Source: a virus | IMG/VR virus record: IMGVR_UViG_3300025101_000170 | Span: 1-25,075 of that record | Length of the DNA stretch: 25,075 nt | Direction: 5' to 3' (one strand) | Part shown: positions 3,529 to 24,650 of the stretch, in pieces | Numbering within the stretch: position 1 is the first letter of the stretch | How the letters are laid out: each line of letters begins with the position of its first letter | The notes under the pieces: generated by a model | Seen by the model: only the letters and a program-made list of their open reading frames with translations | Databases searched by the model: none | What the model was told of the DNA's origin: nothing | Program-made: the position numbers and the translations under genes

Positions 3529-5570
3529 GTTTTACCTATTCCTATTGGTCTTTTTTGAGTTGCTTCCAAAGCCAGTTCAGCTTCATTTATTTTCATTTGT
3601 TGTTTTTTCAACATTAATTCTTGTGATTTAATTGCTAAATTAATTTCAGATTCCTGTTTCTTAATACTAACTTCTTGTGCTTTTAACTGTGTATCTATTT
3701 CTAATTCTTTAGCTTGTAGTTGTAGTTTTTGCATTTCTAATTGTGATTTTTGCGCTTGTATTTTTTCATCTATACTAGGTTTTGGTTGTTTAGGTGGCAT
3801 ATTAGCAGGATTAGAAACAAATTGGTCTGCGTTTTTAAAACCAGCAGTTTCTATAAATTCTGTTACTGCATTGTATATATTTTGTGGTGATACTAACGTT
3901 CCCATACCACCTTGTTGTACTAGACTTTGTATTATAGTCATAATACTAGACATAGATTGTATTTTTGTTTGTTGGCTACCACTACCTATCCCAACGTTTA
4001 CACTACAATTTAACTTTTCTTTCCAACGTGAAACATCTACTGGTACAAATTTATTTCGTAAATAGAAGACTTTCTCCCTATCTTCATATCTTTGAATTAA
4101 CGAATAAATGTTTCTAAATAAATCTTTAATACCTGTTTCTGCAAATATACGAGCAATTAACTCTATTCTCTGCATAGAAGATTCTGTTGCAGCAGAAATA
4201 GCTCCTGATGTTACATGAGAAGTAAGTACATCAGGGTTTAACCCTTGTGTCATTTTAGATACTCCACTTCTTTCTTCTCTTACGCTATCTAAATACTGTA
4301 CCATCTGGAATGCGTATGGTTGTATAGAAGGTGTTGGTAAGGGTGTTACTGCGTTTGGAGCTCTCATTCTAACAATACCACCTGGCTTAGATGTGAGTAA
4401 ATCATCTAATTCTACTTGACCAGCTAATACAGCGTATCTAGCATTATTTGTTAAATACATATTATCTAACAAGTTTCTCATTATTGTAGATTTTATCAAT
4501 TGTATATCTTTTACTGTATCTGCTACAGACATACCATAAAATTTATGAGGTATAGGGAGTGGACAAATTGTTGAAAAAGGAATCATGTCTATTTCGACAT
4601 TATCTAGTATTATATTACCACCTTTGGTAATTTTTCTTAATTCTGCTATACCATCTCCATCATAATCTATTCTTGTATAACATTCATCTAACCATATTTG
4701 TCTAGTTGCTCCTTCGCCTTCGTCAGGGGGTATAGAATCATCGTCATAACTATATCTTGCTAGTCTTTCTTCATCGTATTCTGCTTGACTACTGTTATAT
4801 GTAGGTAAGTTTTCTATTACTTTCTCATCATATCCTTCTAAAATTAAATCAGTTACAGATTTTTTTACTCTATGACAAACGAATTGTGCAGATTCTATAC
4901 TCGTTGCCCTTCTAGATATTAAAAATTCTTCAGGTGGAACTGATAATATTTTTACTTGTCCGTTAATTTTTATACGTTGTACAACACAGTCATAGGTGTA
5001 AATAGCAGGTATAACATTACCCATTTCATCTTGAGTTTCTTTTTGTTGTAAATTTTCTGTTTTTTCTAATATTTTTAAATCATCGTTGGCTAATATTGCC
5101 TGATATTCTATTTCTGTTAAATTTGTGTATGTTTCTGTTTTAGATTCTACTTTTTCTTCCCAAAAATGTTTAACAACACCTGTTTTACTAATTAAAGCAT
5201 CTTTAAACACATCATATAAAACTTTGAAACCGTTGTTTTGCTTATTAAAAACATAGTTTACATAGTCTGTTGCTTGTTGCGCCATTTCAACATCTTCAGG
5301 GCCTTCAGGCTCAAACTCTGCTACATTGTTGTGTGTAGTAAATATTCTCATCAACGATGGCATTATATACTCTATTGTATCTCTTACATCAGTAGTAACA
5401 ATCTCAGACCTTCCGTCTATTTCGTTACCAAACTTTTCACCTAAATAGTATTTCATAGAATCTTCACGTTGCCCTGAAAGCTCACTATTCATGTGTCCGG
5501 TTGCATTTTGAACTTCGCTTTCTAAACGTGAAGCTAGTTCATCATTACTCATTTTTTTGGTTTTAGCCAT
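3525..5570 (-). CDS. Portal protein, P22-like family
   Basis: A 681-aa protein of the length expected for podovirus portals, the dodecameric ring at the capsid vertex through which DNA is packaged. The N-terminus carries the family pattern with ELSGQREDSMKYYLGEKFGN, GRSEIVTTDVRDTIEYIMPS and LMRIFTT within about residues 28-80. DYVNYVF and KDALISKTGVVKHFWEE follow. The centre contains WLDECYTRIDYDGDGIAELR and PLPIPHKFYGMSVAD. The last 90 residues form a long Lys/Gln/Glu coiled coil, consistent with a barrel helix. It lies two genes after the large terminase. AAGGA precedes the start. Confidence 0.92.
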   Translation of the reverse strand: MAKTKKMSNDELASRLESEVQNATGHMNSELSGQREDSMKYYLGEKFGNEIDGRSEIVTTDVRDTIEYIMPSLMRIFTTHNNVAEFEPEGPEDVEMAQQATDYVNYVFNKQNNGFKVLYDVFKDALISKTGVVKHFWEEKVESKTETYTNLTEIEYQAILANDDLKILEKTENLQQKETQDEMGNVIPAIYTYDCVVQRIKINGQVKILSVPPEEFLISRRATSIESAQFVCHRVKKSVTDLILEGYDEKVIENLPTYNSSQAEYDEERLARYSYDDDSIPPDEGEGATRQIWLDECYTRIDYDGDGIAELRKITKGGNIILDNVEIDMIPFSTICPLPIPHKFYGMSVADTVKDIQLIKSTIMRNLLDNMYLTNNARYAVLAGQVELDDLLTSKPGGIVRMRAPNAVTPLPTPSIQPYAFQMVQYLDSVREERSGVSKMTQGLNPDVLTSHVTSGAISAATESSMQRIELIARIFAETGIKDLFRNIYSLIQRYEDREKVFYLRNKFVPVDVSRWKEKLNCSVNVGIGSGSQQTKIQSMSSIMTIIQSLVQQGGMGTLVSPQNIYNAVTEFIETAGFKNADQFVSNPANMPPKQPKPSIDEKIQAQKSQLEMQKLQLQAKELEIDTQLKAQEVSIKKQESEINLAIKSQELMLKKQQMKINEAELALEATQKRPIGIGKT

Positions 5571-5584
5571 TATATTCCTTTGTT

Positions 5585-5809
5585 TTAATCGTAAAAAATA
5601 CTATCTGCTAGTTTTTTAAATTTTGTTCTTTTATCTTTAGTGTCAGCTTTTCCACCACCAACAAATGTTTCTTGTTCTTTAATTAAACTTTTTTCTCTAT
5701 CAGATATAGCTCCTGAAAAATTTCTTAAATTTTCAAGATTATTGAGCCTATCTTTAGTCTTCCCTCTTATTTTAGCTATTTTATTTTTAAAATCTTCTAA
5801 TGTTGCCAT
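5585..5809 (-). CDS. Small hypothetical protein between terminase and portal
   Basis: A 74-aa, charged and helical protein (MATLEDFKNKIAKIRGKTKD, later LADSIFYD) with no Cys cluster or membrane segment. AGGAG lies about 8 nt upstream, and only 9 nt separate it from the large terminase stop. A role in head assembly or packaging is suggested only by the neighbours. I do not recognise it. Confidence 0.68.
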   Translation of the reverse strand: MATLEDFKNKIAKIRGKTKDRLNNLENLRNFSGAISDREKSLIKEQETFVGGGKADTKDKRTKFKKLADSIFYD

Positions 5810-5818
5810 TTTATACTC

Positions 5819-7240
5819 CTATACTATTGCTACTTTAGGGCCTAATCGACCTTTTTTATGCCATCTAGATGTTTCAACATCTGCATGCCTTAAACTCATA
5901 ACAGCGTAACGTGTTGCCGCCATTAAATCATCTTTTAATTTAACCAATTTACCATCTTTCCTGTGATACATTCTGTATTCTTCAAACCAATCATACATTG
6001 TATTAAATACTCTAAATTTACCCTGTTCCATTCTAGTCAACATTTCCATTAACCCAGCTTCAACCGAGTTACCACCTTTTTTCTCACCCAAAGCTGGCGG
6101 ATTCTCAAAATGAAATGGTAACATATTTACACGAGCTGTACGGTATTGTTCTGCAAGTGTTATACCACTCCCTTTATCGTGTTGATATCCGTCATGAGGC
6201 CACGAAATTGGTATGAAATGGCTACCTTCACGACTATTTATGTGTGATGCATGGTAATCAGGTGTTTGTTTAGATTCTCGGTAACAATCGTAAACATATA
6301 CAATATCCTTATCTCTATCCCACGCAACCCAAACTACTGCTGTAGGGTGGTCGTAACCAAAATCTAGACCTGCGATTCTCGGAAAGTGCGAGGGTATGAT
6401 GAACGGGTCGCAGGTCAGGGTATCCTCATCTATAGGAAATACCAATCCAGAGCCAATCATTGGAATCCCTTTACTTCTCAACTCTCTTTCGTGTGGTGGT
6501 AACGCTGAAAGTATTTGTTCTTTCATGTCATCTGTTAAATGACTTGCGTCTTCCCAACCAGCTGTTATTAGAGCTTGTTTAGGTTTTAAGTTGGATGTAA
6601 AGTTTTGTACTACTTCTGTCATACCTGATTCAGGCGTAAACGTTAAATAAACTTGTCCTTGTCTATCTAGGGTACGAGTAATACATTGTGAGTATATATC
6701 TTGTGATGGTTCTTCGTCTAACCACACTAAATCTATAGACTCTCCCATAAATTTTTCTGCACCCATTTCATACGCTTTAAACGCAATTCTTGACCAACCA
6801 CCTGTAATGTGTTTAACCATAACTGATGAAAAAGCATTTGGTACTCCAGGCTTTCTTACAAAATCACCTAATAAATGCTTGGGAATACTACCTTTTCCTT
6901 TGTCATTAGGATTATCAGGTTGTCCAAATAACTCCCTTTGACAAATATCTCGTGTAGTTTCATTGCTCGCTCCACAAACCCAAGCCCGTATAGGTTTATC
7001 AAATCTTCTCCCTTTCCACCATTTAGGGTATAATCCGGTAGAGTGTATAGCCATTTCCATAGCTCCAACATAACTTTTACCAACCCTATTGGCAGCCATT
7101 AATAAACGTTGATTCGCCTCCAATCCGGTTTCGTGGAAGTTTTTTTGAAACCTGTAAGGCTCGTAATAATTTAACTTATTCTCCTCTGTCCGTTTTTTGA
7201 GGGTTTTTAGTATTTCGTTTACTCTTTTATTTTTGTCCAT
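5819..7240 (-). CDS. terL: Terminase large subunit (packaging ATPase and nuclease)
   Basis: A 473-aa motor protein that cuts concatemers and pumps DNA into the prohead. The ATPase domain has Walker A AANRVGKS at about 49-56, Walker B LVWLDEE at 171-177 and a coupling-motif-like TFTP at about 200-203. The RNase H-like nuclease domain shows GLDFGYDHPT with Asp293, WPHDG with Asp350, and DD at 437-438 before LMAATRYAV, giving the three acidic positions expected. The start at 7240 has no good Shine-Dalgarno; a promoter at 7273-7302 would give a leader of only about 25 nt. The small subunit is encoded more than 10 kb away. Confidence 0.95.
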   Translation of the reverse strand: MDKNKRVNEILKTLKKRTEENKLNYYEPYRFQKNFHETGLEANQRLLMAANRVGKSYVGAMEMAIHSTGLYPKWWKGRRFDKPIRAWVCGASNETTRDICQRELFGQPDNPNDKGKGSIPKHLLGDFVRKPGVPNAFSSVMVKHITGGWSRIAFKAYEMGAEKFMGESIDLVWLDEEPSQDIYSQCITRTLDRQGQVYLTFTPESGMTEVVQNFTSNLKPKQALITAGWEDASHLTDDMKEQILSALPPHERELRSKGIPMIGSGLVFPIDEDTLTCDPFIIPSHFPRIAGLDFGYDHPTAVVWVAWDRDKDIVYVYDCYRESKQTPDYHASHINSREGSHFIPISWPHDGYQHDKGSGITLAEQYRTARVNMLPFHFENPPALGEKKGGNSVEAGLMEMLTRMEQGKFRVFNTMYDWFEEYRMYHRKDGKLVKLKDDLMAATRYAVMSLRHADVETSRWHKKGRLGPKVAIV

Positions 7241-7272
7241 ATCGTAATTACAAAGCAGGGTGGGTCATCTCC

Positions 7273-7302
7273 ATTATAATACTTTTTCAAAATTGTTTAC
7301 AA
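7273..7302 (-). promoter_or_regulatory. Sigma70-type promoter for the terminase/head operon
   Basis: On the minus strand TTGTAA (7302-7297) is followed after 18 nt by a perfect TATAAT (7278-7273), 33 nt before the large terminase ATG. The expected start point near 7266 gives a leader of about 25 nt with no clear ribosome site. This is the best promoter match I found in the window. Confidence 0.55.
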
Positions 7303-7482
7303 GTACCAATGTACATTATTCGCCGAAAACACGTGAAAAAGGGTGTTATTCGCCCTGATATAAGGTTATTTGTGTGTGTATGGTAATGGTAGTAGTAGAT
7401 GAACTTTATTTCTGAGAATAATAAGTGAACTGGACGACCTCAAACTAATGGATTCGTAAAGGGGGTTAATGGGTATTTAATA

Positions 7483-7530
7483 ATATTATAATAAACTAAC
7501 TACAGATAACCTTATATTATAATAAACTAA
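7483..7530. repeat. 17-nt direct repeat pair in the control region
   Basis: ATATTATAATAAACTAA occurs at 7483-7499 and again at 7514-7530, a 31-nt period close to three helical turns. The very A+T-rich units could be a DNA-unwinding or protein-binding element. No protein partner can be named. Confidence 0.6.
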
Positions 7531-7755
7531 TAAACCAATTAACCTAATAAGTAATGGTTATTATTTAAACCCTTGTAATTACAACCCATAAGGTATTATT
7601 AAACTTTTATTTAACGTTATAGTGTGGGAAGAAGTACGTCTTTTAAACCCATAATACCACCCATATAACCTTATAATTATATAATAATATATATACTCTC
7701 CCCTTACATATAAGTAATAAAAATACACGGTATATATAGGTCTTCGGGAAATTTA

Positions 7756-7784
7756 ATAGGTATTGGTTTTTGTTTAATACCTAT
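7756..7784. repeat. Inverted repeat ATAGGTATT in the control region
   Basis: ATAGGTATT (7756-7764) is the exact reverse complement of AATACCTAT (7776-7784), with an 11-nt T-rich spacer. It may be an operator for a dimeric regulator or an RNA hairpin. No T-run directly follows, so it is not an obvious terminator. Confidence 0.5.
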
Positions 7785-8248
7785 AATGAAAATAATTACT
7801 TAATTAATTAATTATTTCTTGTAATTTGTATTATTTGGGTATACAGTATCTTTAGTGGGTAGTATTAATTTACTATATATGGAATTAACCACTTGGTAGA
7901 ATAATGTTTTAGAGTTTCAACTACCACAAGCCAACAAGAAACTAGGTACACCTACCAACCGGCAATCCGTTTGAGTAACGTTTAACAGTACCTTTAAGTA
8001 TTAACAGATATTTAACTCCACCCAACATTTGTTAGTTTGGGCGAAATTTAAAAAAATGGGAAACAAATATAGACTTATTGGTAAACATTAAAACCGGACT
8101 TAATTTAATAAAAAGGTAACATCCATAGGTACTGTACAGAGGTTTCCAACACCTAGTATTTTCCGATAATAAAGCCAGAGAGTTAATAAAACGGAACACG
8201 TGAAACATTAACATTTGTTAGTGTTTTTAATTGACCTGTAAAGGTAAT

Positions 8249-8261
8249 ATTCCTCCTCCTT
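8249..8261 (+). promoter_or_regulatory. Anti-Shine-Dalgarno-like stretch upstream of the ribozyme operon
   Basis: The stretch ATTCCTCCTCCTT can pair over 7-8 bp with the AAGGAGGAA ribosome sites of the downstream genes, and its CCUCCUUA resembles the 3' end of 16S rRNA. It lies about 100 nt before the first gene and before the putative first ribozyme cut at 8311/8312. If transcribed it could mask ribosome sites until cleavage separates it. This is inference from complementarity only. Confidence 0.35.
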
Positions 8262-8268
8262 AATTGGT

Positions 8269-8298
8269 GGGGTTATTTTGTATATTCATTATAACCCC
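8269..8298 (+). repeat. 8-bp hairpin in the leader before the first array gene
   Basis: GGGGTTAT near 8269-8276 pairs with ATAACCCC near 8291-8298 around an A/T-rich loop of about 14 nt. No T-run follows. It lies between the anti-Shine-Dalgarno-like stretch and the divergent ribozyme, so it is probably part of the leader RNA fold or an operator. Confidence 0.45.
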
Positions 8299-8307
8299 CT
8301 GTATGTA

Positions 8308-8353
8308 CGTTTTACGGTGTAACCGTAACTGATGATTACAAAAGTATGAAACG
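8308..8353 (+). ncRNA. Divergent, permuted (type III-like) hammerhead ribozyme candidate, HHR1
   Basis: Stem I is a perfect 7-bp hairpin, TTACGGT (8312-8318) with ACCGTAA (8322-8328), directly followed by the exact core CTGATGA (8329-8335). GAAA lies at 8348-8351. Stem III is short: C8308-G8353, G8309-C8352, T8310-A8351. This places the cut after T8311 (GUU triplet). Stem II is weak: three pairs (8337-8339 with 8344-8346) and a U-U mismatch where G-C is usual. Its place just before the AGGAGG of the first gene matches the other ribozymes, but it may be slow, degenerate or inactive. Confidence 0.45.
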
Positions 8354-8371
8354 GCAACAAAGGAGGAAAAA

Positions 8372-8650
8372 ATGCAAAAAATAAATTTAAGTGAAGTTAC
8401 AGTATTTAAAACAATTAACAAAAACGGACACAAATTAAATAATTGGTTTGTAGATGTAAACGGTGAAAAAGTACATTCAACCTTAATGAGTGAATTTTTT
8501 TATTTATTAACAAAAGAAGGCGTTGAGTTGGTTGACGATTTAAATGTTTACGAAAATATAAATGTAATTAATATTGCAGAAGGTGATTTTGAACATATTA
8601 TTATTAGTAGACTGGAAATGCACAAAACATACGAAATAGAAGGCGCATAA
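8372..8650 (+). CDS. Array gene 1: small protein of unknown function
   Basis: A 92-aa soluble, acidic protein (pattern VTVFKTINKNGHKLNNWFVD, then EFFYLLTKEGVELVDDL). The N-terminal half looks like a beta-hairpin followed by a helix. No Cys cluster, membrane segment or known catalytic motif is visible. The strong ribosome site AAAGGAGG lies 7 nt before the ATG. The stop codon directly abuts the first base of HHR2, with zero spacing. Small early phage proteins of this kind often act on host targets, but nothing here shows which. Confidence 0.72.
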   Translation: MQKINLSEVTVFKTINKNGHKLNNWFVDVNGEKVHSTLMSEFFYLLTKEGVELVDDLNVYENINVINIAEGDFEHIIISRLEMHKTYEIEGA

Positions 8651-8766
8651 GTAATACTGATGAGGTTTTAGTAACCGAAACGGTGTTGGGTATTTGATGT
8701 AGACTAAGACTGGGGCGTACGAACCCACGAGCAACAAAAACACATTTAACCAATACCGTATATTAC
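8651..8766 (+). ncRNA. Type I hammerhead ribozyme HHR2 with enlarged stem III
   Basis: Stem I: GTAATA (8651-8656) pairs with TATTAC (8761-8766). Core CTGATGA is at 8657-8663. Stem II GGTT/AACC (8664-8667, 8673-8676) has a 5-nt loop. GAAA is at 8677-8680. Stem III pairs 8680-8689 with 8750-8759, 10 bp including one G-U. The predicted cut is after A8760 (GUA triplet). Unlike the other copies, stem III is capped by about 60 nt that may hold further structure. The ribosome site of the next gene starts 5 nt after the ribozyme. Confidence 0.9.
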
Positions 8767-8781
8767 AAAAAGGAGGAAAAT

Positions 8782-9090
8782 ATGAGATCATATCCAATAT
8801 GGTGCGTTGTAGATGCGCCAAATTATAACAGTTCTAAATCATACGGAACAAGAGAATATACTACTACCGATATTAAAATTGGTACTAGTGCGAGTAATTC
8901 TTTTGATTTTGTTAAAACAGAAACTAAAAAAACTGTTTTTAGATGTGAAACAACTGAAACTGAATATGTAAAATATGAGTTTTTGGTTGATGATGTAGTT
9001 ATTAAAACTGCATTATATAACCCAAAAAATCGTAAAGTTGAAATATTACAGTTGACTTCGGTAGGAAGTAGACAACAATATAGACTATAG
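8782..9090 (+). CDS. Array gene 2: small beta-rich protein of unknown function
   Basis: A 102-aa protein rich in Thr, Tyr, Glu and Val (MRSYPIWCVVDAPNYNSSKS start; repeated ETETK/TTETE stretches). It probably forms a small beta barrel or sandwich. The centre (KKTVFRCETTETEYVKYEF) alternates polar and hydrophobic residues as in beta strands. AGGAGG lies 6 nt before the ATG. The last base of the TAG stop is also the first base of HHR3. No family is recognised. Confidence 0.72.
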   Translation: MRSYPIWCVVDAPNYNSSKSYGTREYTTTDIKIGTSASNSFDFVKTETKKTVFRCETTETEYVKYEFLVDDVVIKTALYNPKNRKVEILQLTSVGSRQQYRL

Positions 9091-9146
9091 TAATACTGAC
9101 GAGGATTTAATATCCGAAACACCCAATTTATTTGGGTGTATATTAC
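9090..9146 (+). ncRNA. Type I hammerhead ribozyme HHR3
   Basis: Stem I: GTAATA (9090-9095) with TATTAC (9141-9146). Core CTGACGA at 9096-9102 carries the allowed variable base. Stem II GGAT/ATCC (9103-9106, 9112-9115) has loop TTAAT. GAAA is at 9116-9119. Stem III is C9120-G9138 plus ACCCAA with TTGGGT. The predicted cut is after A9140 (GUA). It overlaps the stop of the previous gene by one base and ends 4 nt before AGGAGG of the next. Confidence 0.93.
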
Positions 9147-9163
9147 AACAGGAGGAAAATAAA

Positions 9164-9382
9164 ATGTCAAAATTAAAAGTATATTATTTAGATGTTGATG
9201 TCGTACTTAGACTTCAAGTTGAAGTAAATGCACACAACAAAAAAGAGGCTAAAGAAAAAGCAGTAGAAGTTGCACGTGATACCTATTTCAACGAGTTTGT
9301 AAGCGCTAAAGCAGATAAAAACGAATATATAGAATGTGTAGGTAATTCTGATGAATTAGGTACATATGATAGAATTAGGTAA
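9164..9382 (+). CDS. Array gene 3: small protein with strand-helix fold
   Basis: A 72-aa protein starting MSKLKVYYLDVDVVLRLQVE, followed by an Ala/Glu/Lys-rich helix (NKKEAKEKAVEVARDTYF). A beta strand with the pattern V-x-V-x-A and then an EA-x-x-KA helix is seen in small phage proteins, and also in the 69-aa protein at 11823-12032 of this window. The function is unknown. AGGAGG lies 8 nt before the ATG and directly follows HHR3. Confidence 0.72.
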   Translation: MSKLKVYYLDVDVVLRLQVEVNAHNKKEAKEKAVEVARDTYFNEFVSAKADKNEYIECVGNSDELGTYDRIR

Positions 9383-9394
9383 TTCTAGACAAAA

Positions 9395-9451
9395 GTAATA
9401 CTGATGAGGATTCAATATCCGAAACCCAATCTTATTGATTGGGTCTATTAC
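9395..9451 (+). ncRNA. Type I hammerhead ribozyme HHR4
   Basis: Stem I: GTAATA (9395-9400) with TATTAC (9446-9451). Core CTGATGA at 9401-9407. Stem II GGAT/ATCC has loop TCAAT. GAAA is at 9421-9424. Stem III CCCAATC/GATTGGG has a TTATT loop, closed by the A-U pair. The predicted cut is after C9445 (GUC, the most common natural triplet). AGGAGG follows within 4 nt. Confidence 0.94.
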
Positions 9452-9467
9452 AATAGGAGGAAATATA

Positions 9468-9683
9468 ATGACTTGCGAAAACAAAGTAATTCAAGTTATA
9501 GAAAAAGGTTATGACGTAAAAGAGGTTCAAGTGCCTTGTGGTAGCACAAGTATTCACGGAGACCGCTTATTATGTGATAAATGCTTGAACAATAAAAAAT
9601 TACAAAAACAACTTCAACAACAAGACCGAAACCAAAAAGCAGATGATGATTGGTTGAGTTCTAGTAATTGGGGTGAAATGTAA
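9468..9683 (+). CDS. Array gene 4: small Cys-containing (zinc-ribbon-like) protein
   Basis: A 71-aa protein. PCG at 23-25 and CDKC at 36-39 give three or four potential metal ligands (Cys24, Cys36, Cys39 and perhaps His30), resembling half of a zinc ribbon. A Gln/Lys-rich helix and an acidic DDDW segment follow. The start at 9468 is chosen because AGGAGG lies 7 nt upstream; an in-frame start at 9435 would fall inside the ribozyme. DNA, RNA or protein binding is possible; the target is unknown. Confidence 0.72.
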   Translation: MTCENKVIQVIEKGYDVKEVQVPCGSTSIHGDRLLCDKCLNNKKLQKQLQQQDRNQKADDDWLSSSNWGEM

Positions 9684-9688
9684 ATAAA

Positions 9689-9745
9689 GTAATACTGATG
9701 AGGGTTAGATACCCGAAACCTAATCTTATTGATTAGGTCTATTAC
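9689..9745 (+). ncRNA. Type I hammerhead ribozyme HHR5
   Basis: Stem I: GTAATA (9689-9694) with TATTAC (9740-9745). Core CTGATGA at 9695-9701. Stem II GGGT/ACCC has loop TAGAT, a compensatory change relative to GGAT/ATCC in HHR4. GAAA is at 9714-9717. Stem III CCTAATC/GATTAGG also covaries with HHR4 at one pair (C-G to T-A) while keeping the TTATT loop. The predicted cut is after C9739 (GUC). Confidence 0.94.
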
Positions 9746-9762
9746 AAAAGGAGGAAAATAAT

Positions 9763-9981
9763 ATGAAAAGATATACTGTACACTCAAAAGATAAAGTTGT
9801 TAGAAAAATAACAGGTTGGGTCGCTGATTTTGGAGAAAATAGTGGCGTTGAAGGTATTGTTAAAAACGGAATACATGACATTAAATACAATGTTAATAAT
9901 GTATCTTTTATAGGTAAAAGCGCTAAACATTTAGCAAATTTTTTTAAAGATACTTATTCTTTCAAAATAACAGTTAAATAA
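9763..9981 (+). CDS. Array gene 5: small basic protein of unknown function
   Basis: A 72-aa, Lys-rich protein (MKRYTVHSKDKVVRKITGWV start; later KSAKHLANFFKDTYSFKI) with alternating short beta strands and one helix and no Cys. The basic charge would suit nucleic-acid binding, but no motif confirms it. AGGAGG lies 7 nt before the ATG. The TAA stop abuts the first base of HHR6 with no spacer. Confidence 0.72.
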   Translation: MKRYTVHSKDKVVRKITGWVADFGENSGVEGIVKNGIHDIKYNVNNVSFIGKSAKHLANFFKDTYSFKITVK

Positions 9982-10048
9982 GTAATACTGATGAGAGTTA
10001 AATACTCGAAACCCCTGAAAACATGAAACTCTTTCAGGGGTCTATTGC
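9982..10048 (+). ncRNA. Type I hammerhead ribozyme HHR6
   Basis: Stem I: GTAATA (9982-9987) with TATTGC (10043-10048), one G-U wobble. Core CTGATGA at 9988-9994. Stem II GAGT/ACTC, a new compensated pair set, has loop TAAAT. GAAA is at 10008-10011. Stem III is the longest of the compact copies: CCCCTGAAA with TTTCAGGGG, 9 bp. The predicted cut is after C10042 (GUC). AGGAGG begins 4 nt after the ribozyme. Confidence 0.93.
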
Positions 10049-10062
10049 AACAGGAGGAAAAT

Positions 10063-10428
10063 ATGAATACATTAACAATTTTAATTTTTGGTATAATAGA
10101 CAATCTTGTATTGTGTATAGCTTTCTATTTTACTTATCTTTGTTTAGAGGTATATATAGAAAAATACTTTAAAACCATAGTATCAGCCTTTTTGTTGGGA
10201 ATTATTTCTGCTGGATTATCAAATACTATTTCAGACGGATTAGGTTTCTTTTTACAAATGGAGTTTTATTTTGGTTTCGTGGTAATGCTAGGTTGTTTGT
10301 TGGGTATGTTGATAGTTCCGTTCATGGAATTTATTAAATATATAAAGAAAAAAAATAAAGAATGTAGATTACACCCTAAAATTCATATATGGGGCGAAAA
10401 AATAAAGAGTAAAACTGACGAGGATTAA
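10063..10428 (+). CDS. Array gene 6: small membrane protein with about three TM helices
   Basis: A 121-aa integral membrane protein. Hydrophobic segments cover about residues 3-25 (LTILIFGIIDNLVLCIAFYF), 40-60 and 68-90 (FGFVVMLGCLLGMLIVPFM). A basic cytoplasmic tail (KYIKKKNKE) and KSKTDED follow. The start at 10063 is set by AGGAGG 6 nt upstream; a TTG at 10045 would lie in ribozyme stem I. The last codons overlap HHR7, and the TAA stop falls in its loop II. A holin-like or superinfection-exclusion role is possible but unsupported. Confidence 0.72.
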   Translation: MNTLTILIFGIIDNLVLCIAFYFTYLCLEVYIEKYFKTIVSAFLLGIISAGLSNTISDGLGFFLQMEFYFGFVVMLGCLLGMLIVPFMEFIKYIKKKNKECRLHPKIHIWGEKIKSKTDED

Positions 10429-10458
10429 TTATCCGAAACGCCTTCGGGCGTCTTTTAC
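10409..10458 (+). ncRNA. Type I hammerhead ribozyme HHR7, overlapping the upstream coding end
   Basis: Stem I: GTAAAA (10409-10414) with TTTTAC (10453-10458), a compensated change from GTAATA/TATTAC. Core CTGACGA at 10415-10421. Stem II GGAT/ATCC has loop TAATT. GAAA is at 10435-10438. Stem III CGCC/GGCG has a UUCG tetraloop. The predicted cut is after C10452 (GUC). The core also encodes KTDED of the upstream membrane protein, whose stop lies in loop II, yet the cut falls after that stop. Confidence 0.93.
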
Positions 10459-10474
10459 AACAAAGGAGGTAAAC

Positions 10475-10765
10475 ATGAAACAATGCTTTGATGTAATGCG
10501 CAGAGATTATTGCAAAGAAAAAGATGTTGCTGGGTATTTTTATAGATATTTTCTAGTAAAAACATTTAGTAATGAAGATGACGCTAAATCTTACGCACAC
10601 AAATGTCATGATTATCCGTCAGGTAAAGTTAATTTACCAAACGATGATTATGAAAAAATAGGTAAAGTAAACGAGGTAAGCTCCAAAATAGAAAAACAAA
10701 CTGGAAACATTGTGTGTTCGGTTGGTTATTTAGTAGCAAAACCTCATCAACAATTAACATTTTAA
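10475..10765 (+). CDS. Array gene 7: small soluble protein of unknown function
   Basis: A 96-aa protein (MKQCFDVMRRDYCKEKDVAG start; FSNEDDAKSYAHKCHDYPSG). The first 50 residues resemble a strand-helix unit in which a sequence such as YFLVKTFSNEDDAKSYA packs as in small phage proteins that handle post-processing or binding tasks. The scattered Cys and His residues are not arranged as a zinc finger. AGGAGG lies 6 nt before the ATG. No ribozyme lies between this gene and the next; only 15 nt separate them. Confidence 0.7.
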   Translation: MKQCFDVMRRDYCKEKDVAGYFYRYFLVKTFSNEDDAKSYAHKCHDYPSGKVNLPNDDYEKIGKVNEVSSKIEKQTGNIVCSVGYLVAKPHQQLTF

Positions 10766-10780
10766 AACAAGAGGTAAAAC

Positions 10781-10993
10781 ATGAAATATGGATTAGTATA
10801 TATAAGCGAAACAACCGGTAGCATTTTGACAGCGTCAAGTGACACTTATGAGAACGAAGATGACACTATTGATTTGAAAAATGCTCAACAGAAATTGTAT
10901 CCGAAAAGACAATATATAGTAGTACCTATACCGTCTGTTTGGAAAACAGAAGATACAACTGATTGTCCGGTTTGCGAACAAACATTGAAATAA
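10781..10993 (+). CDS. Array gene 8: last gene of the ribozyme operon, CxxC near the C-terminus
   Basis: A 70-aa protein (MKYGLVYISETTGSILTASS) ending in CPVCEQTLK. The single CPVC pair could bind metal in a dimer or be redox-active. The first half resembles the strand-helix pattern of its neighbours (YISETT... NAQQKLYPKRQYIVVPIP). The ribosome site is a weaker AGAGG, unlike the AGGAGG of genes 1-7, and no ribozyme precedes it, so it is probably translated from the same final mRNA as gene 7. The operon terminator follows. Confidence 0.68.
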   Translation: MKYGLVYISETTGSILTASSDTYENEDDTIDLKNAQQKLYPKRQYIVVPIPSVWKTEDTTDCPVCEQTLK

Positions 10994-11017: not shown

Positions 11018-11052
11018 CCCCTCATTATTAATTTAGTGAGGGGTTTTTTTTT
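11018..11052 (+). terminator. Intrinsic terminator of the ribozyme operon
   Basis: CCCCTCA (11018-11024) pairs with TGAGGGG (11037-11043), extendable to about 10 bp, and is followed by nine T residues (11044-11052). This is a classical rho-independent terminator for plus-strand transcription, lying exactly between the convergent operons. A smaller palindrome, AACTAGTT repeated at about 10992-11009, precedes it. Confidence 0.88.
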
Positions 11053-11613
11053 CTAAATTTTCATCTTATCTAATTTGTCTAACGCTGATATTTCTAAATT
11101 TTTAACGTAATCTAATATTTCTAAATATATTTTTTTAAATTTTAAGTAATCGTTAGTCTTCACTTTCAAAATATTTTTTCTTACATCATCTGTATAATTG
11201 AATATACCGTTTTTACAATGTGGACATGTGCTTATGTTGTTTAAATTTATTAAAAAACCAGTACCGGAACAAACAAAACATTTATCAACAGTAACCTCTA
11301 TAATTGCCATTTTTAATAATTTACCTATTTTTATAGGAGTTTTGTTCGTATAATGTACTTTGTTACGTTTTAGAATATTTTTGTTATCTAACAGCTCTAA
11401 TATTTCTTGTTTTATAATTTTGTAAAATTTACTATTTAAACCTTGTTCACTGTCCAAATATTTATTAATAACGAACATATATTCTGTTTCAGTTAAGCCA
11501 CTATATCCCATTAAAGTATTTACATCTTCAGATGTCATACAGTTATGTGATTGTCCGGTAACTTCTAATACAGGTGAGCTTGGCAACAATAATTTTAATA
11601 ATTCAACATTCAT
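11053..11613 (-). CDS. Putative Q-like antiterminator with four-Cys zinc finger
   Basis: A 186-aa protein. CFVCSGTG at 112-119 and CPHCKNG at 130-136 form a DnaJ-like CxxCxGxG...CxxCxxG zinc site. Helices with basic residues follow (DYLKFKKIYLEILDYVKNL). This arrangement, with the zinc finger after about 110 residues and a helical C-terminus, is what I know from phage antitermination proteins of the Q82 type, which load on RNA polymerase and switch on late genes. The family call is tentative; any small zinc-binding protein would look similar. It is the last gene of its operon. Confidence 0.5.
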   Translation of the reverse strand: MNVELLKLLLPSSPVLEVTGQSHNCMTSEDVNTLMGYSGLTETEYMFVINKYLDSEQGLNSKFYKIIKQEILELLDNKNILKRNKVHYTNKTPIKIGKLLKMAIIEVTVDKCFVCSGTGFLINLNNISTCPHCKNGIFNYTDDVRKNILKVKTNDYLKFKKIYLEILDYVKNLEISALDKLDKMKI

Positions 11614-22068: not shown

Positions 22069-24650
22069 TTACCTCCAATTATTTCATTTATAGTTTCATC
22101 ATCTACATCACTTCCGCCTACATTTGGCATTATAGGGTCTAAATTAGTTGGGCTGTATTGTCCTCTAGGGTCTGTATAGGTATCTTCTATTTGTTTAATA
22201 CTACTACCTATAAAAGTAGGTTTTATACGTTTATCTTTAACTAAATCTATAGATTTTTTAAAATCAACTGCTCCAATTTCTTTAATATCTCTTGTCAAAA
22301 CTTTATATGCGTATAGACCTTCTAGTCCAGCTTGTTTGTAAGAAAATAATTGTGCTATATCGTTTACAGAACCAGTTCTGAATAACGCTGATGCACCTGT
22401 GTCTATAACTTCTTCAGATATTTTAAAATTAGTTTGTTTGTTAGTTGCTAAAACAACTTCTAATAAAGTATTTAAATCTTGCTTGGTACTTTTAGATTCT
22501 ATACCAAAAATATTATCAAATATATCTCTAGAAGATTTAGTACTAGACCATTTATCTATAGCTGATTTAAGTAAATCAGGGTCTACTACTACTCTGTTTA
22601 CATTACCTTTCCCACCTTCTTTTACGGCTGTAAAAGCAATTTCACTTAAAGTAGATTTTTTAATGAGATCATTAAATTTTAATAAAGCATCAGGGTCATC
22701 CTTTAGTATTCCTCTAATTTTGTTTACAGTTCCAATAACTCTTTCACTCAAACCCATGTTTTTATTATTTTGAAACCAAAAACCTATTTCCAAAGGACTC
22801 ATGTCATCTACATTTACTATTCTATTTATAAAGTTGTCATCTAATTTGTTTTTGCTACCCATTTCTCTTGATATAACAGGCCCAAAATCATCGTATAATT
22901 TATGGTATAAACGTCTAGCTTCTTTTATATCAGCTATTTTTGTTGCAGTCATATTACTAGATGGCTTATACATTAGACTGTCAAATAAACCGTCTATGTG
23001 TTCATCTACTTTATGAAAATATTTTAAAACTTGTGCTTGTTGTACTGTGTCATCTTTTGGAACTTGATTATAAACATTTTGTATCTTAGTTCTAAAATTT
23101 AAAACACCCTTTAAATCAAAACCTTTAACAAAATCACCACTTTTACCAACCATATCTTTACTATATTGTTGTGTCATTTCGTGTATTTTTAAAAGGTAAT
23201 TATCTGTTTTTAAGTTTTTTAATTGTTTGGCAGATAAAGCTGTTTGACCTTTTATAAAGGCTTCCATGTTACTAGATAATTTCTCAAACTCTCTTGGTAC
23301 TATCTGTAATTTATCGTCTATGAATTTATCATATTGTAATTTTATTTGTTTTTCTAAACCATCTTTTTGGTTTTTTAAACTGTTCTGTACAAACAACCCT
23401 AGTTGTTCTGTAAATTGAGTATTACCACCTTTTTGGTCTTTTATAAATTTTGAAATTAAATCATTAGTTACATTTTCATCTGTTATTCCAAGTGTTTTTG
23501 TAAAAGCTCTTAAAGCATTTTCTTCTTGTATTAATTTAACTTCTAATGCTAATTTTTGTGCATCAGCTCCAAATTTACCTTGTAAAAACTCGTCAAACCT
23601 AGTTTCATCTACACTTTGTTGTAATGGATTACTTGAGTTTGTTGCACCTCTAGCTTGAAATCCTAAAAGAGGTATTCCTAAATCATGGGCTCTTGCTGAT
23701 AAAAATGCTTCTTTTGGAGATAAACCATTTTCTATATTTTTTAAAGTATTAACTAATATTGAATCGTTTGCTTGATAAATTATACCATTTGCGTCTGTTA
23801 TAAACTCGCCTTTGTCATCTTTAACTTTTCTAATGCCAATGTCTTTTAGTTTTCCAAAACCTTGTTGGTTAATTTCTTGGGTTTTTACATCAAAATATTT
23901 AGGAAAACGTTCACGTTTAAAATCAATAAATTTTGTTACACCTTTGCCTAATTGATTACTTAATACATTAGCTACAGGTAGTACAGCTGTAGTAATACCA
24001 GCTTCAGTACCTACTTTTGTAAAGTCTACTTTTAAATCAGTTCCGGGAAGATACGTTGTACCTTGTTCACCACCTAAAGCACTTGTTCCAGCTTGTTGCG
24101 CTATACTAACGGCTGAGCCTCCAAGAAATAAACCCACACCTTTTTTTAGGTATTCAGTACCTACACCTGCAATACTTGTAGCTTTAACTGGTCTAGATAC
24201 CATAGCAATAGGTGGATACCACATAGCTGTTTGGGCTGCTAACTGGTAATAATCTATTCCTGATGCGCCTCTAGGGTTTACATAAAATGTATATGGGTCT
24301 ACTTGTTTACCATTTTCTTGTCTAGGTATGCTGGCTATTATATTGTCATATTTATCTTTATTAAAATATGTGTTTGGAAACTGTGCTTTTATAACATCAG
24401 CTATCTCGTTTGTATCTGTAGTTAAAGTATAGGCTCCAGCTACTGCAGTCCATTGTTTAGCAGTGCTAAAATCATCTGCTGAATCTATAGAAAAGAAACT
24501 TCGTGGCATATCTTTATATTCCACAGCTTCATCGTAAAATAATTCATCAATAAAACCTACATCTTCTTCTTCGTTTGCTACTACATTTACCGCAGGTAAA
24601 CTAATAACTTCATCTATAATTTGTTCTGATTTTTCGTCAAATTCACTCAT
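22065..24650 (-). CDS. Large probable internal virion / ejection protein
   Basis: An 861-aa protein. Residues 1-50 are acidic and disordered. An Ala/Gly-rich hydrophobic stretch at about 160-200 (VGLFLGGSAVSIAQQAGTSA) may insert in membrane. From about 270 to 830 it is mostly long helices rich in Lys, Asp, Leu and Phe. This is the general plan of podovirus internal core proteins that leave the head during DNA entry. No lytic transglycosylase or peptidase motif is visible. It overlaps genes at both ends by ATGA. The role is inferred from size, composition and late position. Confidence 0.62.
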   Translation of the reverse strand: MSEFDEKSEQIIDEVISLPAVNVVANEEEDVGFIDELFYDEAVEYKDMPRSFFSIDSADDFSTAKQWTAVAGAYTLTTDTNEIADVIKAQFPNTYFNKDKYDNIIASIPRQENGKQVDPYTFYVNPRGASGIDYYQLAAQTAMWYPPIAMVSRPVKATSIAGVGTEYLKKGVGLFLGGSAVSIAQQAGTSALGGEQGTTYLPGTDLKVDFTKVGTEAGITTAVLPVANVLSNQLGKGVTKFIDFKRERFPKYFDVKTQEINQQGFGKLKDIGIRKVKDDKGEFITDANGIIYQANDSILVNTLKNIENGLSPKEAFLSARAHDLGIPLLGFQARGATNSSNPLQQSVDETRFDEFLQGKFGADAQKLALEVKLIQEENALRAFTKTLGITDENVTNDLISKFIKDQKGGNTQFTEQLGLFVQNSLKNQKDGLEKQIKLQYDKFIDDKLQIVPREFEKLSSNMEAFIKGQTALSAKQLKNLKTDNYLLKIHEMTQQYSKDMVGKSGDFVKGFDLKGVLNFRTKIQNVYNQVPKDDTVQQAQVLKYFHKVDEHIDGLFDSLMYKPSSNMTATKIADIKEARRLYHKLYDDFGPVISREMGSKNKLDDNFINRIVNVDDMSPLEIGFWFQNNKNMGLSERVIGTVNKIRGILKDDPDALLKFNDLIKKSTLSEIAFTAVKEGGKGNVNRVVVDPDLLKSAIDKWSSTKSSRDIFDNIFGIESKSTKQDLNTLLEVVLATNKQTNFKISEEVIDTGASALFRTGSVNDIAQLFSYKQAGLEGLYAYKVLTRDIKEIGAVDFKKSIDLVKDKRIKPTFIGSSIKQIEDTYTDPRGQYSPTNLDPIMPNVGGSDVDDETINEIIGGK

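Follow-up and report, generated by a model that had tools for sequence, protein, structure and literature searches.

A hammerhead array in a phage operon

The window analysed here is the whole of an IMG/VR virus record (IMGVR_UViG_3300025101_000170; 25,075 bases) from a tailed phage, in which portal, terminase, and major head protein were identified. Eight small + strand genes, named A to H, lie at 8372-10993 and end at a strong terminator. Seven hammerhead ribozymes precede seven of these eight consecutive genes, all on the + strand of the operon. Six are type I hammerheads, numbered 1 to 6, and the one at the head of the operon, hammerhead 0, is of type III. That the seven elements are hammerheads is, from their sequence, a near certainty. 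They are listed below with cut positions, all predicted from the sequence, and with E values from two covariance models, R1 and R2, described in the next section (nt, nucleotides).

8306-8355, + strand: type III hammerhead 0; predicted cut 8311^8312 (GUU); R2 E 6.7e-11
8651-8766, + strand: type I hammerhead 1; cut 8760^8761, 21 nt before gene B; R1 E 7.2e-7
9090-9146, + strand: type I hammerhead 2; cut 9140^9141, 23 nt before gene C; R1 E 6.3e-14
9395-9451, + strand: type I hammerhead 3; cut 9445^9446, 22 nt before gene D; R1 E 6.6e-16
9689-9745, + strand: type I hammerhead 4; cut 9739^9740, 23 nt before gene E; R1 E 5.6e-14
9982-10048, + strand: type I hammerhead 5; cut 10042^10043, 20 nt before gene F; R1 E 1.6e-11
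10409-10458, + strand: type I hammerhead 6; cut 10452^10453, 22 nt before gene G; R1 E 2.3e-18

Each type I element consists of CUGANGA, a stem II of 4 base pairs (bp) with a 5-nt loop, GAAA, stem III, a GUA or GUC triplet, and a stem I of 6 bp, and the minimum-energy fold of each of the six intervals is the hammerhead. The catalytic core CUGANGA ... GAAA is present in all seven elements, with three helices round the core, the 15.1-16.1 A-U, and an NUH cleavage triplet. Fast hammerhead cutting needs a peripheral tertiary contact between stem I and stem II. Stem I is constant at 6 bp and flanked by A, and loop II, UNAAU, is conserved 92-99% at three positions.

Hammerhead 1 is the largest element (116 nt), with a 60-nt apical region atop a 10-bp stem III. 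R1 aligned only its 5' half well, and its full form is given by the descriptor together with the minimum-energy fold. The large apical insert on stem III lies at 8682-8755, and the homologue in the viral contig L097 also has one (3749-3820), of different sequence. The insert could be a ligand-sensing domain or filler.

Hammerhead 0 is permuted, with stem I closed and stem III open. Its stem III has 3 bp, as against 6 bp in the L097 homologue, and its stem II opens with a U-U pair.

Detection of the elements

R1 derives from 22 hammerheads found in other contigs, with the window and its close relatives left out. Searched against both strands of the 25 kilobases (kb) with filters off, it finds exactly the six type I sites (E 2.3e-18 to 7.2e-7), and its next-best match in the window has an E value of 0.58. 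R2, for which 38 type III hammerheads from other contigs were used, recovers hammerhead 0 as its one site. A weaker R2 match at 11483-11543 on the - strand (E 0.12) lies inside an open reading frame, lacks stem I, and was treated as chance. The descriptor search returned seven elements on the + strand of the window, none on its - strand, and none in 60 shuffled windows.

A preliminary description of this DNA, made from the sequence, had proposed the six type I hammerheads. The descriptor reproduces all six intervals exactly, R1 finds all six, and the core, stem, and triplet features claimed for them are present in every one. The same description mentioned a divergent seventh candidate before gene A; it is a real hammerhead, but of type III rather than type I. 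Rfam models were named there as a means of checking; at gathering thresholds Rfam 15 matches none of the elements in the window. When E values are used instead, the RAGATH-1-hammerhead model (RF03152) matches three elements at 27.7-32.8 bits, under its gathering score of 56.3. Nor does Rfam, at gathering thresholds, report a hammerhead in 20 array loci.

The helices change in a compensatory manner. For example, in homologous elements at matching positions, stem II is GGAT/ATCC in the relative L402 and GTCT/AGAC in L403, and compensatory helix changes are also found between homologous elements of the window and L402. A2 holds 96 double-change cells, a count that is partly circular because A2 rows were chosen by structure.

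Position of the ribozymes among the genes

The genes of the operon and its terminator, all on the + strand, are as follows.

8372-8650, + strand: gene A, 92 amino acids
8782-9090, + strand: gene B, 102 amino acids; stop codon overlaps base 1 of hammerhead 2
9164-9382, + strand: gene C, 72 amino acids; weak match to phrog_9348, a family without assigned function
9468-9683, + strand: gene D, 71 amino acids; CXXC motif
9763-9981, + strand: gene E, 72 amino acids
10063-10428, + strand: gene F, 121 amino acids, hydrophobic; stop codon in loop II of hammerhead 6
10475-10765, + strand: gene G, 96 amino acids
10781-10993, + strand: gene H, 70 amino acids; the sole operon gene with no ribozyme in front
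11018-11043, + strand: intrinsic terminator at the operon end

The ribozymes are generally intergenic, as the preliminary description had it, except that hammerhead 6 takes in the gene F stop. Of the six type I elements, four adjoin or overlap the stop codon of the preceding gene, and two begin 6 and 13 nt past it. The leaders from cut to ATG are 21, 23, 22, 23, 20, and 22 nt. Because the cut of a type I element falls at the motif's 3' end, the upstream messenger RNA (mRNA) would retain its stop codon and terminate in stem III, and the downstream mRNA would begin unstructured, right before the Shine-Dalgarno sequence. The predicted cut of hammerhead 0 is 60 nt before the ATG of gene A. In the gaps between the operon genes there are no promoter-like sites, and a terminator is found at the operon end only.

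The same rules appear across viral loci. An upstream stop codon lies within about 25 nt at 196 of 209 type I sites (those with enough upstream sequence), and the median distance from the type I cut to the next ATG is 27 nt (209 sites). Type III elements mostly lie 25-75 nt after the upstream gene, with a median of 69 nt to the next ATG. The 45 nt before them fold with a median of -14.2 kcal/mol (comparison on 150 viral type III sequences), against -4.9 before type I elements and at random places. The extra room before type III thus holds a stable hairpin, and both types would leave an upstream product that ends in a hairpin. It was also considered whether type III elements occur only at promoters, and this was ruled out, as most have a same-strand gene ending 25-75 nt upstream. 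In all 111 viral loci with at least two hammerheads, every copy is on one strand. The 265 genes downstream of ribozymes form 183 clusters with no shared family, which rules out that the ribozymes serve one gene family and indicates that they follow junctions, not particular genes.

The leader at the head of the operon

Two features precede hammerhead 0 on the same strand.

8252-8261, + strand: CCUCCUCCUU, complementary to the gene A Shine-Dalgarno (8361-8367)
8269-8298, + strand: hairpin immediately upstream of hammerhead 0, arms GGGGTTAT/ATAACCCC

In the RNAfold structure of 8245-8385, CCUCCUCCUU pairs with the Shine-Dalgarno and encloses both the hairpin and the ribozyme (z -3.3). The same masking pairing is predicted for the L097 leader (z -5.1), and in the predicted 3' cleavage product the gene A Shine-Dalgarno is free. 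Our hypothesis is that CCUCCUCCUU masks the gene A Shine-Dalgarno in the uncleaved leader, and the folding of these two related sequences suggests that the head leader acts as a gate.

As a separate observation, CCUCCUCCUUAA (8252-8261 in the window, and at the corresponding site of L097) resembles the 3' end of 16S rRNA, i.e., the anti-Shine-Dalgarno. Between the terminase gene and the operon, about 1 kb (7241-8300) has no convincing genes; L097 is similar here but diverged.

Relatives, arrays, and cassettes

A pattern in which nothing but the 5' strand of stem I, the core, and CGAAAC is fixed, and which does not require the structure, found 71 stretches among viral contigs. Its distinct viral matches number 81; all but four of them, 77, form complete type I hammerheads, and three of those four keep the stem I partner. 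Seven matches to this pattern turn up in 84,980 genomes of bacteria and archaea. One is a genuine type I hammerhead of this subfamily between two same-strand genes of Flavobacterium sp. A45 (4162-4222 of locus L396, - strand), so the elements are not strictly virus-only; the other six are chance matches. Wider patterns gave 275 type I and 194 type III calls in viral contigs, partly redundant and pattern-selected, and none in shuffled loci.

Long arrays occur in a minority of contigs. Among 40 contigs checked whole, 30 have one type I copy and ten have two. The view in the preliminary description that phage hammerheads are usually single agrees with these counts but overlooks prophage clusters reported in 2011 (PMC3088659). 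The window holds 6+1 hammerheads, and arrays of 10, 9, 7, and 6+1 are found in contigs L123, L329, L356, and L335. The L097 contig carries about 14 type I and 2 type III elements, about 16 hammerheads in 6.6 kb. A type III element ahead of a type I run is seen in the window, L097, L335, L230, and L380. In L132, four hammerheads are followed, in the same operon, by three pistol ribozymes between the next genes (Rfam RF02679, 40-54 bits; 5688-5767, 6145-6190, and 6749-6813, + strand). There are no pistol ribozymes in the window.

The window, L001, L402, and L403 share genes in differing order with ribozymes at the borders. The flank of L001 is 99.7% identical to the window, and L001 has one additional gene and ribozyme after the type III element. 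Gene D is 86% identical to a gene of L402 that sits in a different gene order, the L402 homologue of gene H does carry a preceding ribozyme, and a gene F homologue with its hammerhead is also found in L402. Gene F and a type I hammerhead occur as well in Votkovvirus S28C10, of another family (Autographiviridae), where stem I is GTTGTA/TACAAC and not the GTAAAA/TTTTAC of the window. In AP013540.1, the gene F homologue (match at 22584-22967) has a hammerhead overlapping its 3' end. It is annotated as an N-acetylmuramoyl-L-alanine amidase, an annotation that its short hydrophobic sequence does not support.

Elsewhere, at L091 5645-5728 and at L118 2999-3080 and 3537-3616, hammerheads have a stem III of 3 bp, beyond which come a recurring internal loop, CTAGA...TCGAT, and a G+C-rich hairpin.

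The terminase of the window is 60% identical to that of Pelagibacter phage Baldr and the head protein 54% identical to that of Pelagibacter phage HTVC106P; from this likeness, the host may be a marine alphaproteobacterium. Hammerheads are absent from both Pelagibacter phages that come closest in terminase and head protein. When four other array operons were searched against named phages, no DNA match came up, so the search yielded no cultured phage with an array.

Relation to known systems

The basic idea that clustered hammerheads process phage RNA has been known since 2011. Perreault et al. described hammerhead clusters that flank single genes in prophages, suggested that these yield single-gene mRNAs by processing, and found that three tandem sets cleaved in vitro and one in E. 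coli (PMC3088659). The window is similar in having multiple same-strand hammerheads that flank single phage genes. It differs in scale, the examples tested in 2011 being tandem or triple sets as compared with 6+1 here and about 16 in a relative. It also differs in having one ribozyme per gene junction, uniform leaders, a type III element at the head followed by type I, and variable cassettes, and in occurring in viral rather than prophage contigs. What is new here is the scale, the regularity, the type III/type I layout, and the spread in viral contigs missed by Rfam.

RAGATH-1-hammerhead RF03152, the best Rfam match to three elements, has the same core and similar stems I and III, but the elements score under its gathering threshold and are not filed as members. 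Pistol ribozymes are self-cleaving and phage-associated (PMC4604425); their fold is unrelated to that of the hammerhead, and in L132 both classes share one operon. In haloviruses HF1/HF2, a hammerhead variant lies 13 nt upstream of an early phage gene, and an mRNA 5' end was mapped within 3 nt of its cut site (PMC3088659). This variant, unlike the window array, is a single copy with an altered core. Reviews since 2011 place types I, II, and III in phages and leave their role open, and one of 2017 still calls the role of prokaryotic and phage hammerheads an open question (PMC6155905). No report of arrays like these was found in the open-licence PMC literature.

Proposed mechanism and alternatives

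Based on these observations, the operon RNA is probably processed into gene-sized mRNAs by hammerheads at nearly every junction. In this model, an early or accessory operon of a tailed phage would be transcribed from one putative upstream promoter to the terminator, and the nascent RNA would cut itself into the short mRNAs A, B, C, D, E, F, and G+H. The type I ribozymes would occupy the tight gaps between genes. On cutting, the upstream mRNA would end in a hairpin of stems II and III with a cyclic phosphate, and the downstream mRNA would receive a leader of 20-23 nt with a 5'-OH, just before the Shine-Dalgarno. The type III element at the head would use its own hairpin directly upstream, such that both types yield a hairpin-ended upstream product. 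The likely benefit is that the fates of neighbouring small genes would be uncoupled, with 3' ends protected, 5' ends made standard, and each gene translated independently, and no host ribonuclease would be needed.

Several lines of evidence argue for processing: the position and orientation of the elements, the uniform leader length, the intact cores, the compensatory changes, the completeness of nearly all viral matches to a pattern that does not require the structure, the held-out models, the one-strand rule, the hairpin-capped 3' ends predicted for both types, and the recurrence in other phages. Pistol ribozymes take the same kind of position in L132, the gaps lack promoter-like sites and a terminator stands only at the end, and there is the precedent of prophage tandem hammerheads that cut in vitro and, in one set, in E. 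coli (PMC3088659). We infer cutting by the ribozymes of the window from the intact core and knowledge of the family. The preliminary description thus stands firmly on the identity of the hammerheads, and the gene-sized mRNAs it proposed are the best-supported explanation of them.

Some observations weigh against this explanation. Gene H lacks a ribozyme in front, and most terminase relatives lack the array, so the array is not essential to the lineage. In L097 the element at 4986-5040 has the core CCGATGA, not CTGATGA, with stems otherwise intact, and another has a broken stem II; some copies are possibly dead. The operon promoter is presumed, cutting is predicted from sequence, and the benefits ascribed to 5'-OH and hairpin ends are inferred from general knowledge of RNA decay.

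The reordered genes could be read differently, with conserved spacers made of ribozyme and ribosome site serving mainly as stretches of homology by which phages swap single-gene cassettes, and with cutting secondary. The sharply differing gene order and content among the window, L001, L402, and L403, the extra gene and hammerhead of L001, whose flank is nearly identical, and the occurrence of gene F with a hammerhead in a phage of another family would all fit. Plain homology would nevertheless keep the letters, whereas here the stems change compensatorily around a fixed core, and many contigs have a single lone copy; we consider this improbable. It is still harder to see the elements as hairpins that stabilize or terminate RNA with their catalysis unused. 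Stem III does provide a stable hairpin at every junction, and hammerhead 6 also scores as terminator-like. Mere hairpins would not keep CUGANGA...GAAA, NUH, and a matching stem I, however; five of the six type I elements have no U-run, and a second ribozyme class takes the same place in L132, which makes this account very unlikely. Hammerheads are capable of ligation, and tandem copies flank single genes, such that ribozyme pairs might excise each gene for re-ligation as circular or spliced RNA. Nothing in the window data points to re-ligation, and Perreault et al. sought such products and found none (PMC3088659), so we give excision almost no credence.

A gate at the head of the operon is compatible with processing. 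The uncut leader would mask the first Shine-Dalgarno with CCUCCUCC (8252-8259), cleavage would unmask it, and the timing or conditions of cutting would set expression. The pairing predicted in the window and L097 leaders and absent from the cut product favours this, but the pairing itself shows no covariation between these two related sequences, is not seen at the other type III sites listed, and might persist if the freed 5' fragment remained bound. A gate of this kind is possible, though we regard it as rather unlikely.

Implications

Taken more broadly, the arrays could represent a protein-free mRNA-processing system of environmental tailed phages. In such a system nearly all gene junctions would have a self-cleaving ribozyme, the ribozyme classes (type I, type III, and pistol) would be interchangeable, single-gene mRNAs would have hairpin-capped 3' ends and uniform leaders, a masked ribosome site would gate the head, and the whole would be cassette-borne. 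We put this forward tentatively, as something we doubt more than we believe. The arrays show that Rfam overlooks these ribozymes. Because nearly all junctions have a ribozyme and homologues carry the genes in other orders, the processing hypothesis can be tested gene by gene, and the array is a natural design for balanced multi-gene expression. If the hypothesis is true, RNA catalysis would be used for routine mRNA maturation in phages.

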